From positions 1-55,953 of the forward strand of contig JAFIEK010000025.1 of NCBI GenBank assembly GCA_020832545.1: DNA of 55,953 nt, written 5' to 3'. Positions 11,708-17,068 of the stretch are shown here, piece by piece (the first letter of the stretch is position 1; every line of letters begins with the position of its first letter). The notes beneath the pieces were generated by a model, which was not told the DNA's origin, searched no databases, and saw only the letters and a program-made list of their open reading frames with translations. The stretch comes from Pararhodobacter sp. GTDB taxonomy: Bacteria > Pseudomonadota > Alphaproteobacteria > Rhodobacterales > Rhodobacteraceae. Position numbers and translations under genes: made by a program.

Positions 11708-12499
11708 TCATGCCTGCGGTGGCACCGCCAGAATGTCGATTTCCAGACTGCCCATCAGTTCTTGCGCAACGCTCCCCAGGAACAACCGTTTCACGCCGGA
11801 AAGCCCGCGCGTGCCGATCACAAGAAGATCGGGACGTGCCTGTTCGGCCAGGCCCGCGATGGCGTCTGCGCCGACGCCCTCAATGATGCGCGCACTGTAG
11901 CTCAGATTGCCAAGATCGAGCTTTTGAATGAACCGCCCAAGCTCACGACGCGTGGACTGGAATTCGCGCTCGGTTTCTTCATGAACTCGCTCGGCAGGGA
12001 TGCCGGCATGGGTCATCATCTGTCGGGTGATCGGTGCGTAGCCGTGGATGAAGGTGACATCCGCATCGTCCAGCAGTCCCAATGCATGCGCCTTGCGGGC
12101 AGCATGGCCCGATGTCTCGGACATATCGGTTGCGATGAACACCTTGCGCCAGCGCTCTCCGGTCTTCGAGTTGGCCATCAGGACCGGGCGGCCCGCCGTT
12201 CGGGTGACGCGCTCGATTGTCGTGCCGATGAACACGTCGCGCAGATACCGACGACGATGCGCGCCCATCACGATAAGGTCAGCGTCGCGCGCCTGGGCTT
12301 CCTCGCCGATAGTTTGAAAGGCGTGACCCTTGGTGACGGCGATCTCTGCTTGAGACGGTGCGCCAAAACCCGCGACCTGGTCAGACAGAAAGCCCTCGGC
12401 GCTGGCTATTTCCTCACGTGCCCGGTTCTCAGGAAGATCGTCCTCGACCACATGCAGCACTGTGTGCTGCCGATCGTGCTGACGATGACCGTATTTCAC
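11708..12499 (-). CDS. Tandem universal stress protein, 5' end truncated
   Basis: Two UspA domains. The second is complete (about residues 120-263: KVFIATDMSET, then DLLVIGTRGLSGVKRLFLGSVAQELM). The first begins abruptly at its second strand (TVLHVVEDDLP) and lacks the first 30-35 residues that should carry the opening beta strand and nucleotide-contacting Asp. The remaining first domain is normal (ADLIVMGAHRRRYLRDVFIGTT). The 12 residues before TVLHVV read antisense to the DUF1538 gene and look like junk, so the gene was probably broken at about 12460. It could still be translated from the ATG at 12499, but a pseudogene is just as likely. Confidence 0.75.
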   Translation of the reverse strand: MKYGHRQHDRQHTVLHVVEDDLPENRAREEIASAEGFLSDQVAGFGAPSQAEIAVTKGHAFQTIGEEAQARDADLIVMGAHRRRYLRDVFIGTTIERVTRTAGRPVLMANSKTGERWRKVFIATDMSETSGHAARKAHALGLLDDADVTFIHGYAPITRQMMTHAGIPAERVHEETEREFQSTRRELGRFIQKLDLGNLSYSARIIEGVGADAIAGLAEQARPDLLVIGTRGLSGVKRLFLGSVAQELMGSLEIDILAVPPQA

Positions 12500-13156
12500 G
12501 CGTTAGTGCTGGGCGTGGTGCCGCAAAACCCCGCCGGGCTCTTGGCCGGGTTTCTGGCGGTGCTGGTCGGCCTGACGTTGCTGGTGCGGGGGCTGGAGAT
12601 GAGCCTGTTTCCGATCGGCGAGGCGCTGGCCGATGCCATGGCACGGCACGGCCACCCGGTCTGGCTGATGGGATTTGCCTTCGCGCTGGGGTTCGGCAGC
12701 ACGGTGGCCGAACCCGCGCTGGCCGCTGTCGCAGCCGAGGCCGCAGCTGCAATGGTGGCCGATCCCGAATTTCCTGCGCTTGAGGCACAGCGCGCCGCGC
12801 TCGCCCTGCAGATCCGCTATGGGGTCGCCTTTGGCCTTGGGCTGGCGCTGATGCTGGGGGTCTGGCGCATCCTCAAGGGGTGGCCCCTGATCTGGCTGGT
12901 GCTGCCGGGTTACGGCGTGATTGCGCTGGTGGCACTGCTGACCGATGCACCATTCGTGGCCGTGGCGCTGGATGCAGGGACGGCGGCCACTTCGGCCATC
13001 AACATACCCTTGATGCTGGCGCTGGGCATCGGGCTTGGCTCGGTGCTGCGCAGCCGGAATGCGCTGGTCGATGGCTTCGGCATGGTGGTGCTGGCCAGCC
13101 TGACGCCGATGCTCGTGTTTCTTGCTGCGGCGTTCGTGCTGGTTGAGGGAGGCTGA
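12452..13156 (+). CDS. DUF1538 membrane protein A
   Basis: 234-residue multipass membrane protein of the DUF1538 family, function unknown. About seven hydrophobic helices. Motifs shared with its downstream partner are AEPALAAVAAEAA (near residue 80), ALDAGTAATSAINIP (near 175) and LVDGFGMVVLA (near 210). The start is uncertain: the ATG at 12452 is used, but homology may begin a little upstream and the 5' end overlaps the truncated stress-protein gene on the other strand, so the first few residues may be altered. One base separates its stop from the next gene's ATG. Confidence 0.8.
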   Translation: MQHCVLPIVLTMTVFHALVLGVVPQNPAGLLAGFLAVLVGLTLLVRGLEMSLFPIGEALADAMARHGHPVWLMGFAFALGFGSTVAEPALAAVAAEAAAAMVADPEFPALEAQRAALALQIRYGVAFGLGLALMLGVWRILKGWPLIWLVLPGYGVIALVALLTDAPFVAVALDAGTAATSAINIPLMLALGIGLGSVLRSRNALVDGFGMVVLASLTPMLVFLAAAFVLVEGG

Positions 13157-13157
13157 G

Positions 13158-13925
13158 ATGCTGGAACTCGTTCTGCGCGAGGCAATCCGCACGGGCCTTG
13201 ACCTTGCGCCCATCCTGCTGATCCTCGGGCTGTTCTCGGCGCGGTTTCTGGTGCGCGACCTTGCCTTGCTGCGCCGAGTGCTGATCGGCATCCTGCACGT
13301 TTCCGTCGGGCTTACCCTGTTTCGCATCGGCCTTGACGGCACGCTGCTGCCGCTTGTGACCGATCTTGCGCGCGGGCTGGCCGAGGGCATGGTCGCCGCC
13401 ATGGCCTGGCCGCAGGTGCTTGCGCTGGTGGCGTTCGCCGTGGTGATCGGCGCCACGGCAGCCCTGATAGAGCCGACGATGGCGGCCACGGCAGACCGGG
13501 TGCATGACCTGACCGGGGGCAGCGTCCGGCCCATGGTGTTGCGCATCGCGGTCGCCGTGGGCTTCGGACTGGGGCTGGGGCTTGGCGGTTTGCGGCTGGT
13601 TTACGGCCTGCCGCTGGGCATGATCCTGGCCCCCATGGTCGTGCTGATGGGCGTGCTGGCCCTGATCGCGCCAAGGCAACTGGTTCCCCTGGCGCTGGAC
13701 AGCGGCGCAATTGCAACTTCGGTCGTCACCGTTCCGATCATCGCAGCCTATGGCGTGGCGGTTGCCGACACCCTGCCGGAACGCAGCGCGCTGGCGGATG
13801 GCTTCGGCATGATCGTGCTCGCCATGATCGGATCTGCGGTTTCGGTGCTGGCAGCGGCAACCCTGGACGACCGTTTGCGTCGTCGCGACCCTGACACAAC
13901 GAAAGAAGAAGGAGATAGGCCATGA
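13158..13925 (+). CDS. DUF1538 membrane protein B
   Basis: 255-residue paralogue of the upstream protein, with a similar helix pattern and a charged, probably cytoplasmic, C-terminal tail. Shared motifs: IEPTMAATAD near residue 110, ALDSGAIATSVVTVP near 190 and LADGFGMIVLA near 215. GAGGGAGG lies just before the ATG. The one-base gap upstream and the four-base ATGA overlap with the PII-like gene downstream imply a coupled three-gene operon. Two unequal paralogues encoded side by side suggest a heterodimeric membrane complex; this is inference. Confidence 0.85.
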   Translation: MLELVLREAIRTGLDLAPILLILGLFSARFLVRDLALLRRVLIGILHVSVGLTLFRIGLDGTLLPLVTDLARGLAEGMVAAMAWPQVLALVAFAVVIGATAALIEPTMAATADRVHDLTGGSVRPMVLRIAVAVGFGLGLGLGGLRLVYGLPLGMILAPMVVLMGVLALIAPRQLVPLALDSGAIATSVVTVPIIAAYGVAVADTLPERSALADGFGMIVLAMIGSAVSVLAAATLDDRLRRRDPDTTKEEGDRP

Positions 13926-14275
13926 AGTTCAAGCTGATCATTGCCTTCCTGCCCGATGCGCGGCTGGAAAAGGTGCTGGAGGCCGCGCGCGAGGTGGGCG
14001 CCACGGGGTCGACCGTCATCACATCTGCGCGGGGCGAGGGGTTGGAGCGTGAACAAAAGTTCCTCGGACTCGAGGTAACCTCACATCGCAATCTTGCGTT
14101 CTGGCTTGTCGAGGAAAGCGTCGCACCAAAGGTTCTGGCGACGATTGCCTCCATCGGCCGCTTCGAGGAGGAGCGCGGCGCGGGCATTGCCTGCCAGATC
14201 GACGTCGATGAGGCAGTCGGATTGATGCGCCAAATCAAGGCTCTGGAGGGAAGCACTGAGAGTAACAGGGATTGA
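13922..14275 (+). CDS. PII-like signal protein
   Basis: 117-residue protein of the P-II/GlnB superfamily in its short PII-like form. It starts MKFKLIIAFLPDARLEKVLEAAREVGATGSTVI (typical first beta-alpha-beta). The loop region is SARGEGLE where GlnB has a long T-loop with Tyr51, so no uridylylation site is present. The C-terminal half has a ferredoxin-like repeat and ACQIDVDEAVGL. A good ribosome site (AAGGAG) precedes the ATG, which overlaps the DUF1538 B stop. By analogy with SbtB-type proteins it probably gates the membrane partners in response to a nucleotide; the ligand cannot be read from sequence. Confidence 0.85.
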   Translation: MKFKLIIAFLPDARLEKVLEAAREVGATGSTVITSARGEGLEREQKFLGLEVTSHRNLAFWLVEESVAPKVLATIASIGRFEEERGAGIACQIDVDEAVGLMRQIKALEGSTESNRD

Positions 14276-14359
14276 CGATCAGGCGAAAAGGACGCATTCA
14301 ACAAAGGGCTTCCCAACCTTCACTCCCACACAGCCGCGGTTGCGGCTTTCGGCCATGTC

Positions 14360-16861
14360 ATGGATGTCATTTCGCTCGTCGGCATTGTTGCCGCACTCTT
14401 CGTCGTCATTTCCCTGAGCGAGCCCCTCGCTGACCGAACACGGCTGCCCTATACGGTGGTGCTGGCGCTAATCGGAGGGCTGATCGGCACCGTCGCGATT
14501 TACCTGGCCGAACATGGCCGTAACCTTCTTGGTTTGCCTCTGACGATCGAGGTATTCGAGTTCAGTATCCGCTCAAATGTATTCTTGTATGTGCTGCTGC
14601 CGACGCTTCTGTTTCAGGTCGCGCTGGGTCTCAATCTGCGCCGCATGGCGGATGACTGGGTGCCAATTCTTGTCATGGCTGTGCTGGCCGTTGTGGTCGC
14701 AACCTTTACCATCGGTTTCGCGCTGACGCCGTTCACCACGCTGCCGCTGATGGCCTGCCTGATGCTTGGTGCCATCGTTGCCACCACCGATCCCTCGGCC
14801 GTGGTTTCAATCTTTCGCAACATCGCCGCGCCGCAGCGGCTGACCCGCATCGTCGAAGGGGAAAGCCTGCTCAATGATGCCGCCGCCATCGCGCTTTTCG
14901 GGTTCTTCCTGACCTTCGTCATGCTGGGTGTGCCAAACCCGACACTGCAAGATGCGCTGGTGGGCTTTCCGATCCTGATCGTCGGGGGACTTGGCGTTGG
15001 CTGGGTGTCTGCGCGGATCTGCATTGCGCTTTTTGCCATGCTCTCGCGTTTTCCGCGCGCGCAAGTCTCGCTCAGCGTAGCATTACCCTATGTTGCCTTT
15101 CTGGTGGCAGATCGCCTGCTGGGCGTTTCCGGGGTCATAGCGGTTGTGATGGCTGGCATGACGCTGAACTTTCTGGGGCCGGGACGATTGTCACCAGTAA
15201 ACTGGTCGAACCTGCGCGAAATCTGGGATGTGCTGGCGCATTGGGCCGGGGCGTTGATCTTCCTGTTGGCAGCGCTGCTGGTTCCGCGCTTATTGGGCGA
15301 TGTCCAGCTGCGCGATCTGGGCCTGATCGGGGTGGTGGTGGTTGCGGCAATCGCTGCACGGGTCTTCATACTCTATGCTGTTTTGCCGCTGCTGACTGCG
15401 ATGCGCCTGTCACCGCGTGTCGACCGCCCTTATCGCGTGGCAATCCTGTGGGGAGGTCTGCGTGGTGCCGTCACGCTAGCACTGGCTCTGGCCGTGACCG
15501 AAAACCTGAGTGTTCCGGTGGATATCCGCCGCGAGGTTGGCATTCTTGCCACCGGTTTCACGCTCTTCACTCTTTTGGTGCAAGGGACGACACTGCGCTG
15601 GATAATTTCGTTTCTGGGGTTGGACAAGCTTAGCCGACTTGACCGCGCGCTTTCAAATCAGGTCATTGCTGTCGCGCTGCAGAATGTGCGCGAGGAAGTG
15701 GCAAATACCACCAAACGCCATGAGTTGAGCCACGACATAGTGCGCTCGGAAGCCAAGCGCTTTGCCGAACGGCTGGATGGCGCGATGGAAAAGGCTGAGG
15801 GCGCTGACGAGATCCCGGACCGCGATCGCATCACGCTCGGTCTGGTGGCCCTTGCGGGGCGCGAGCGCGATATGATCCTAGACACGTTTCGGGAGCAGCT
15901 GATATCGGCGCGGCTGGCTGAACAGATGCTCTCGGACGCAGACCGGCTGATTGAGCGGACGCGCACTGGCGGGCGCGATCAATACCGCACGGCAGGCCGG
16001 ATGAGCCTTGTGCGCGGGCGCTGGTATGGGTTCGCGATCTTCCTGCACAACCGTCTGCGGATGTCGCGCCTGCTTGCGCGGATGATGGCTGACCGCTTTG
16101 AAATCCTGCTGAACCAGCGTCTGATCCTGCGCGACATGCACAGATATATTGACGGCAAGATCCGCCGTATACACGGAAAACGCGTGGCCGACCTTCTGCA
16201 TGAATCGCTCAGACGGCGCGAGGAAGAAACGCAATCCGCGCTTGACGGCCTGCGGCTGCAATATCCCGGTTATGCCGAAGAGATCGAGCGTCGTTTTATC
16301 CGGCGAACCTCTTTGCGTCTGGAAGAGCGGGAATACAATGTGCTGTATCAGGACGGCTTGATCGGCCGCGAGCTGTTTACCGCCCTCAAGCAGGAACTGG
16401 GCGAAAAACGCAAACTTGCAGAGGCTCGCCCGGCGCTGGACCTTGCGGTTCAGAAAACCGAACTTGTACGGCAGTTTCCACTGTTCGCGAATATGGATGA
16501 AGACAGGCGCGCCAGGCTCGCCCAGTCGCTCAAGGCGCGGTACGTTCAGCCCGGCGAAGTCTTGATACGCAAGGGCGACATCCCTCGTGAAGTTTACTTC
16601 ATCGCGTCTGGCGCCTTCGAGGTTGAGGTTGCAGGACAAAAGAGCCAACTGGGCCGGGGTGAAATGTTCGGCCAGCTCGCACTCCTGAGCCGGAAAGTGC
16701 GCAGGACGCAGGTGTCAGCATTAAGCCACTCGACCTTGCTTGTTCTTGACGAGGCGCGCTTCAGGCGTCTCCTGGACCGAAATGAGACAATTCGCGATGC
16801 TGTGCGTGAGAGTGCCAAGCAGCGGGGGCTCAAGACCGAGCTTTTGAACATGCCAGAGTGA
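14360..16861 (+). CDS. CPA1-family Na+/H+ antiporter with C-terminal cNMP-binding domain
   Basis: 833 residues. The N-terminal 410 or so form the NhaP/NHE-type transporter with about 12 helices, the TDPSAVVSIF motif (near residue 148) and EGESLLNDAAAIALF (near 168), which carries the ion-binding Asp. A long helical cytoplasmic region follows (about 430-700). The last 120 residues are a cyclic-nucleotide-binding domain: FPLFANMDEDRRARLA, VQPGEVLIRKGDIPREVYFI, and GRGEMFGQLALLS, the phosphate-binding cassette with an R..QVSAL end. It lies 84 bases after the PII-like gene on the same strand. Confidence 0.9.
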   Translation: MDVISLVGIVAALFVVISLSEPLADRTRLPYTVVLALIGGLIGTVAIYLAEHGRNLLGLPLTIEVFEFSIRSNVFLYVLLPTLLFQVALGLNLRRMADDWVPILVMAVLAVVVATFTIGFALTPFTTLPLMACLMLGAIVATTDPSAVVSIFRNIAAPQRLTRIVEGESLLNDAAAIALFGFFLTFVMLGVPNPTLQDALVGFPILIVGGLGVGWVSARICIALFAMLSRFPRAQVSLSVALPYVAFLVADRLLGVSGVIAVVMAGMTLNFLGPGRLSPVNWSNLREIWDVLAHWAGALIFLLAALLVPRLLGDVQLRDLGLIGVVVVAAIAARVFILYAVLPLLTAMRLSPRVDRPYRVAILWGGLRGAVTLALALAVTENLSVPVDIRREVGILATGFTLFTLLVQGTTLRWIISFLGLDKLSRLDRALSNQVIAVALQNVREEVANTTKRHELSHDIVRSEAKRFAERLDGAMEKAEGADEIPDRDRITLGLVALAGRERDMILDTFREQLISARLAEQMLSDADRLIERTRTGGRDQYRTAGRMSLVRGRWYGFAIFLHNRLRMSRLLARMMADRFEILLNQRLILRDMHRYIDGKIRRIHGKRVADLLHESLRRREEETQSALDGLRLQYPGYAEEIERRFIRRTSLRLEEREYNVLYQDGLIGRELFTALKQELGEKRKLAEARPALDLAVQKTELVRQFPLFANMDEDRRARLAQSLKARYVQPGEVLIRKGDIPREVYFIASGAFEVEVAGQKSQLGRGEMFGQLALLSRKVRRTQVSALSHSTLLVLDEARFRRLLDRNETIRDAVRESAKQRGLKTELLNMPE

Positions 16862-17068
16862 CACTACGCGTCAGCCGTCTGCGGCCTGCCTGCTTATGCT
16901 GGTCGTGGACGGCATGGTGATCGACCGCTTTGGCAAAATTCTGCGGATGCAGTGCCGCAACTTTGCAGGCAGCATACCGCCCACCATGTTGGTCACGCTG
17001 CAACTGCGAGCAATTTCCGGGTATGCGCAGCGAATTTCCGCAATCTCCGGATCTGCGGTAATTCCCGA
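16862..17068. other. Degenerate stretch, no intact gene
   Basis: Between the antiporter stop and the terminase-like pseudogene. Short open frames occur but none shows a family I recognise. It may be part of the decayed phage or island material that follows. Confidence 0.4.

Follow-up and report, generated by a model that had tools for sequence, protein, structure and literature searches.

A PII-like protein encoded with the DUF1538 antiporter UmpAB looks like a switch on a salt-and-pH pump

The DUF1538 proteins UmpA and UmpB of Halomonas zhaodongensis (a species now placed in Vreelandella) form a heterodimeric, pH-dependent Na+(Li+,K+)/H+ antiporter, according to the sections of PMC5484666 consulted, which report complementation of E. 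coli KNabc, vesicle assays and co-immunoprecipitation. UmpAB is the sole functional report on DUF1538 in the literature searched. Among transporters, known partners of PII proteins include AmtB (with GlnK) and SbtA (with SbtB), and the transport of ammonium, nitrate, urea and bicarbonate is known to come under PII control (PMC10710835, in part); for alkali-cation antiport none was found in the literature searched. Here we describe a locus of Pararhodobacter sp. (contig JAFIEK010000025.1) within a stretch of 55,953 nt, called the window, to whose full length all coordinates refer. Two adjacent DUF1538 genes, umpA-like and umpB-like, are followed there by genes for a PII-like protein and for a CPA1-type Na+/H+ antiporter with a cyclic-nucleotide (cNMP)-binding domain (Table 1). 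The DUF1538 pair probably constitutes an UmpAB-type alkali-cation/proton antiporter, with the PII-like protein as its dedicated cytoplasmic regulator. A first-pass annotation of the window had left DUF1538 without an assigned substrate, which is out of date in view of the Na+/Li+/K+:H+ antiport of UmpAB (PMC5484666, in part).

Gene order was compared in two samples of loci (labelled L; compared genomes are labelled G). The first comprised 40 loci (L042–L081, 41 units) hand-picked from the listed matches to spread over genera of Pseudomonadota, and the second the best 80 (L082–L161, 80 units) of at least 512 confirmed relatives in a GTDB-wide scan. L042 and L043 belong to the window's own genus, L082 is Pseudotabrizicola algicola and L083 Rhabdonatronobacter sediminivivens. 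A PII-like gene lies directly 3' of umpAB in 35 of the 41 units of the first sample and in 77 of the 80 of the second, i.e. in 112 of 121 together. This is the conserved two-subunit transporter with a PII-like partner that the first-pass annotation had envisaged, and it answers its question of how often DUF1538 pairs adjoin PII-like genes. Four of the nine exceptions are loci that end soon after umpB (L045, L120), a second unit with PII upstream (L075) and a locus with PII divergent upstream (L114). A coordinate census, dominated by family f51, placed PII downstream in 99 of 106 DUF1538 clusters from 17 families, the families being counted by hand (80 strict cases, and 19 in which the second DUF1538 gene was not among the matches listed and PII lay 774–1021 nt on). 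On these two counts a chance neighbourhood of UmpAB and PII was rejected. The reverse count started from 111 strong PII-like hits (≥ 97 bits, followed by a gap to the next at 72 bits): 84 lie after a DUF1538 gene, one between two units and 23 elsewhere, with three unresolved. The umpB and PII genes overlap at 52 of 109 junctions (starts chosen by script). In the sampled bacteria UmpAB thus nearly always travels with a PII-type protein, and usually also with a CBS-pair protein (see below). DUF1538 itself was found in 116 of the 299 genomes sampled across the phylum and in 3 of the 18 genomes of the window's genus, source genome included, several of which are incomplete.

The two window proteins match the NCBIfam models for UmpA and UmpB in that order (NF041627, 205.6 bits; NF041628, 155 bits), and both, like the PII-like protein, lie above the Pfam gathering cut-offs (PF07556, 22.6 bits; PF00543, 25 bits). 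They resemble UmpAB of H. zhaodongensis in being an adjacent paralogous DUF1538 pair, of which the first protein is matched better by UmpA and the second by UmpB, but differ in scoring far below the equivalog cut-offs (490 bits for NF041627, 500 bits for NF041628) and in the 5' truncation of umpA. Vreelandella sedimenti (L118) and a Halomonas (L098), both close to the characterised species, carry PII downstream of umpAB; their UmpB proteins score above the 500-bit cut-off (515.7 and 513.6 bits) and their UmpA proteins under the 490-bit one (428.3 and 443.9 bits). The ALDxGxxATSxxxxP, DGFGMxVLA and EPxxAA motifs that the first-pass annotation assigned to both paralogues are indeed common to the two translations. 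UmpA–UmpB fusions occur in L048, L057, L064, L075, L077 and L258 and in a long single-chain branch, whereas no natural UmpB–PII fusion was seen in the loci scanned. L075 and L258 hold, in tandem, a single-chain UmpAB with PII and CBS genes beside a separate umpA–umpB pair with its own PII gene. The single-chain UmpAB of L057 gave a good model (pLDDT 84, pTM 0.85), in each half of which helices are broken at two places, the EP motif (E90, E342) and the position right behind the DxGG motif (D166, D418). Across 25 aligned rows E90 is nearly invariant and the other three residues (D166, E342, D418) are fully so; on the basis of the model, E90/E342 and D166/D418 are candidate cation/proton sites. 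The UmpA profile had no match in the PDB, and a Foldseek search with the L057 model returned nothing at E ≤ 0.001. Its best hit (E 0.018) was disregarded, as were the best 50 of 261 structural matches, with TM scores of at most 0.23.

The PII-like protein has a predicted PII fold (pLDDT 82.8, T-loop uncertain), for which the best Foldseek matches in the PDB are GlnK/PII structures (probability 1.00). Canonical GlnB and GlnK are marked by a uridylylatable tyrosine in the T-loop and a functional lysine in the B-loop GDGK motif. The family described here lacks the lysine and almost never has the tyrosine: tyrosine occurs in the T-loop region (positions 37–60) in 3 of 63 aligned rows, and where classical PII proteins have the B-loop lysine, 63 of 63 rows have I, V or L. 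The window protein has no tyrosine in this region, in agreement with the first-pass description of a PII-like protein without a uridylylation loop. What the family keeps is G-A-T-G-x-T and P-G-x-G, and its conserved T-loop feature is KTFFGL. The arrangement is reminiscent of AmtB–GlnK, a conserved transporter–PII gene pair, and the window PII fold best matches a GlnK; it differs in the absent T-loop tyrosine and B-loop lysine and in the transporter, an antiporter heterodimer rather than an ammonium channel trimer. In SbtA–SbtB, too, a PII-fold protein acts on a secondary transporter, by a proposed adenylate-dependent locking (PMC10710835, in part), but UmpAB was not seen to be related to SbtA in the PDB profile and Foldseek searches given above. 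SbtB matches the PII-like profile over residues 6–44 only (E ∼ 0.009).

Clustering of the neighbouring genes of the 120 loci L042–L161 gave one other frequent family, a CBS-pair protein (PF00571) encoded just after PII in 94 of the 120 loci or 94 of the 121 units (24 in the first sample, 70 in the second); the next recurrent family after it reaches 11 of 120 loci. Four of five CBS proteins scanned have two PF00571 stretches and the fifth has one. The PII and CBS genes have a 4-nt overlap at 80 of 98 junctions (script-chosen starts). CBS domains bind adenylates. The gene does not follow PII in L042, L043, L082, L083 or the window, which therefore lacks the four-gene unit; the best hit in the window's own genome scores 42.4 bits and lies within a 629-aa frame of a different contig. 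The place after PII is taken by the CPA1-cNMP antiporter gene in the window, L042, L082 and L083.

We propose that the PII-like protein, as a trimer, would use its shortened T-loop (GEGL...KTFFGL) to dock on UmpAB from the cytoplasmic side and would open or close the transporter in response to a small ligand, for which an adenine nucleotide is the likeliest candidate. The CBS-pair protein, translationally coupled to PII, could give a second adenylate input in most of the sampled bacteria. Since umpAB alone worked in E. coli (PMC5484666, in part), PII is not needed for transport, and this dispensability fits a regulator, most likely a brake. Such a brake would stop the H+-consuming antiporter when energy is short, in the way that AMP-bound SbtB is proposed to lock SbtA. 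We infer the trimer, the docking, the ligand and the direction of control; for gating of UmpAB by PII as such, the nearest precedent would be the action of SbtB on SbtA (PMC10710835, in part).

Several observations weigh against a PII-gated UmpAB antiporter. The window proteins fall so far under the equivalog cut-offs that antiport is assigned to them by family, not by orthology. Replacement of the B-loop lysine throughout the aligned rows makes classical ATP binding doubtful. The part of PMC10710835 consulted presents transporters under PII regulation as trimers, and UmpAB is described as a heterodimer (PMC5484666, in part). Five of the 121 units (L063, L067, L071, L073 and L156) have no PII gene in the available flank, and because high-scoring matches were the source of both samples, these under-represent the rarer forms of DUF1538. 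Finally, the 23 strong PII-like hits away from DUF1538 would suit a different arrangement, in which UmpAB is a sensor-anchor that sequesters PII, a messenger whose real target would be another protein, either CBS or a metabolic enzyme. So would the three f70 genomes checked (L240–L242), where PII and CBS genes lie together apart from umpAB, in two cases beside a MaeB-like gene (named by eye), and the sequestration of GlnK by AmtB, as worded in a reference title in PMC10710835 (seen in part). We doubt this arrangement strongly, as PII tracks UmpAB far beyond any other gene (compare the 11 of 120 loci for the family next after CBS) and has decayed in G003, the sole genome seen without umpAB beside the antiporter.

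Dedicated regulation of UmpAB by PII may extend to more elaborate forms. A distant DUF1538 branch consists of single-chain proteins with two DUF1538 domains (∼ 570–645 aa), and P-II genes adjoin these as well. In the set L222–L261, which holds this branch, ordinary units and orphan loci without DUF1538, PII is directly downstream in 24 of 26 units; L261 has a three-domain protein at that place, and in L249, where 1.2 kb of flank remains, no PII was found. Of nine distant-branch loci inspected closely, eight carry two PII-like genes that differ from each other, the second identified by profile comparison (95.3%) and in L222 also by Pfam (33 bits), and L232 has one longer protein. Proteins of ∼ 380–420 aa with three PII-like domains are encoded right after single-chain UmpAB-like proteins in L187 (the same locus as L261), L188, L189 and L232, and the three that were scanned give Pfam P-II scores of 37–38 bits. 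In profile–profile comparison with the PII-like alignment, domains 1, 2 and 3 score 94.9, 98.5 and 90.7%. Among themselves the values are 92.5% (domains 1 and 2), 51.4% (2 and 3) and 2.6% (1 and 3), so that domain 3 is the least certain. Somewhat short of an even chance, in our estimate, is a fuller model: UmpAB, PII and CBS would form a four-part, energy-gated alkali-cation/proton antiporter in which PII and CBS read adenylates and dock on the transporter. In the distant branch PII would have evolved into two different proteins and, in some lineages, into three PII domains on one chain next to a single-chain UmpA–UmpB, breaking the three-fold symmetry of PII to fit one asymmetric transporter. 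The same set contains PII-like copies away from DUF1538 (L235–L239, L244–L248, L251), several of them beside genes for an SH3-type secreted protein or argB-like or mutS-like genes (named by eye).

Table 1. Features of the umpAB–PII region of the window.
Feature	Position	Strand	Length	Family scores and remarks
Universal stress protein (usp) gene	11708..12499	-		PF00582 122.6 bits; divergent; N-terminus missing
umpA-like DUF1538 gene	12452..13156	+	234 aa as read	PF07556 169.8 bits; 5'-truncated compared with close relatives
usp/umpA 5'-end junction	12454..12470			7-bp palindrome GCAGCAC-TGT-GTGCTGC
umpB-like DUF1538 gene	13158..13925	+	255 aa	PF07556 138.3 bits
PII-like gene	13922..14275	+	117 aa	PF00543 30.9 bits; predicted PII fold; directly 3' of umpB
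CPA1-type Na+/H+ antiporter gene	14360..16861	+	833 aa	PF00999 165.8 bits; PF00027 63 bits; C-terminal cNMP-binding domain

The source genome has one DUF1538 pair. Coordinates and Pfam families bear out the genes and spacings of the first-pass annotation: the umpA stop (TGA, 13154–13156) is separated by one base from the umpB ATG at 13158, the PII ATG at 13922 lies within the umpB stop in an ATGA overlap (with AGGAG at 13910–13914), and 84 bases lie between the PII end at 14275 and the antiporter ATG at 14360. A promoter scan of 12200–17000 found no sigma-70-like site, and the same interval has five terminator-like sites compared with 4.9 in shuffles. A 6-bp hairpin at 14332–14347, just 5' of the antiporter start, recurs at the same place in L082 and L083 with arms that differ but are complementary; L042 aligns poorly there. 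The fold z-scores of this region are 0.48 (window), −0.75 (L082) and −2.65 (L083), two of the three being weak.

The CPA1-cNMP antiporter exceeds the PF00999 and PF00027 cut-offs and scores 195.6 bits against the equivalog cut-off of 279.6 bits for TIGR00831. The first-pass annotation had linked it functionally to UmpAB–PII. If UmpAB, PII and this antiporter formed one regulated circuit that matches two fluxes, its position on the same strand, 84 nt away, and the same order in L042, L082 and L083 would be expected. We nevertheless regard such a circuit as very improbable. None of the other loci in L042–L161 has a strong match beside UmpAB (many flanks are short); weak hits of at most 31 bits occur in L045, L051, L054, L066 and L074, and L043 has 6.5 kb of downstream sequence without the antiporter. 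In G014 a copy 84% identical is on another contig than umpAB, and G003 has an intact copy (at G003:C22; L264, L270) and no DUF1538 match. Upstream of the latter is a PII remnant that lacks the N-terminus and has the invariant G49 changed; in this one genome the absence of umpAB coincides with a decayed PII and a preserved antiporter. The antiporter was accordingly rejected as a constant partner of UmpAB, and we judge it a clade-specific neighbour outside the conserved unit. A second antiporter type, 57–62% identical, is present in 17 of the 18 genus genomes (not G007), with or without DUF1538, which also speaks against the circuit. In the source genome this type is represented by a second cNMP-domain copy, 60% identical, at G000:C31:4493-6970 (minus strand).

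Compared with L042, L043, L082 and L083, the window UmpA is shorter by ∼ 20 residues at the N-terminus, among them the D of RDLLPI, which is nearly invariant; in these relatives the protein begins ∼ 20 residues further 5' and contains RDMLPI or RDMAPI. The N-terminus of the divergent usp gene is present in L042, L082 and L083, and the L043 contig ends inside usp. Between matching points in usp and umpA the distance is 9 nt in the window vs 246 nt in L082, 246 nt in L083 and 245 nt in L042, so ∼ 237 nt are absent relative to L082 and L083, joining the truncated umpA to an equally truncated usp. When the missing stretch was sought in the source genome, only a 28-nt edge match at 12436–12463 was found. 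With the starts of both genes and the intervening DNA lost, the start codon at 12452 is likely to be accidental rather than ancestral, and any promoter between usp and umpA would be gone. In L082 (4201-5300, minus strand) the start of usp is in one frame and the remainder in another. The truncation of umpA may leave the unit weak or silent in the source genome. It could even be a decaying relic without function there, whatever its role elsewhere; the loss of both starts and the intervening region would agree with this, as would the presence of DUF1538 in so few genomes of the genus (several incomplete) and the lone PII remnant of G003. We consider a relic rather unlikely, although still a serious possibility: all four frames (umpA, umpB, PII and antiporter) are open, and dN/dS relative to L082 is low for each (∼ 0.13, ∼ 0.22, ∼ 0.12 and ∼ 0.08 respectively), as an average over the whole divergence. 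The deletion, moreover, could be either real or an assembly error.

No description of the UmpAB–PII(–CBS) link was found by title or abstract among the matches listed, a scope that leaves most subscription papers and all bioRxiv preprints outside. The text of PMC5484666 contains 'PII' and 'nitrogen regulatory' zero times. Other DUF1538 papers make no mention of PII, P-II or CBS (PMC5996927, PMC6055358) or have one PII match only, inside a motif string (PMC7221264); PMC13255231 was searched for DUF1538 and PF07556 only. The UmpAB papers PMC12093952 (text not searched for CBS) and PMC10030654 mention neither PII nor P-II. The PII-like protein of UmpAB looks like a control switch, hitherto undescribed, for a pump that acts on salt and pH. 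Antiporters adjust the pH and salt content of the cell at the expense of the proton gradient, so that cells need fast control of them. To our knowledge, this would be the first PII-controlled Na+/K+:H+ antiporter. The three-domain PII proteins provide a handle on stoichiometry. If PII, with or without CBS, does gate UmpAB, the activity data of 2017 describe the unregulated core only, and a general family of PII sensors would gain a role in pH and salt control in many Pseudomonadota.

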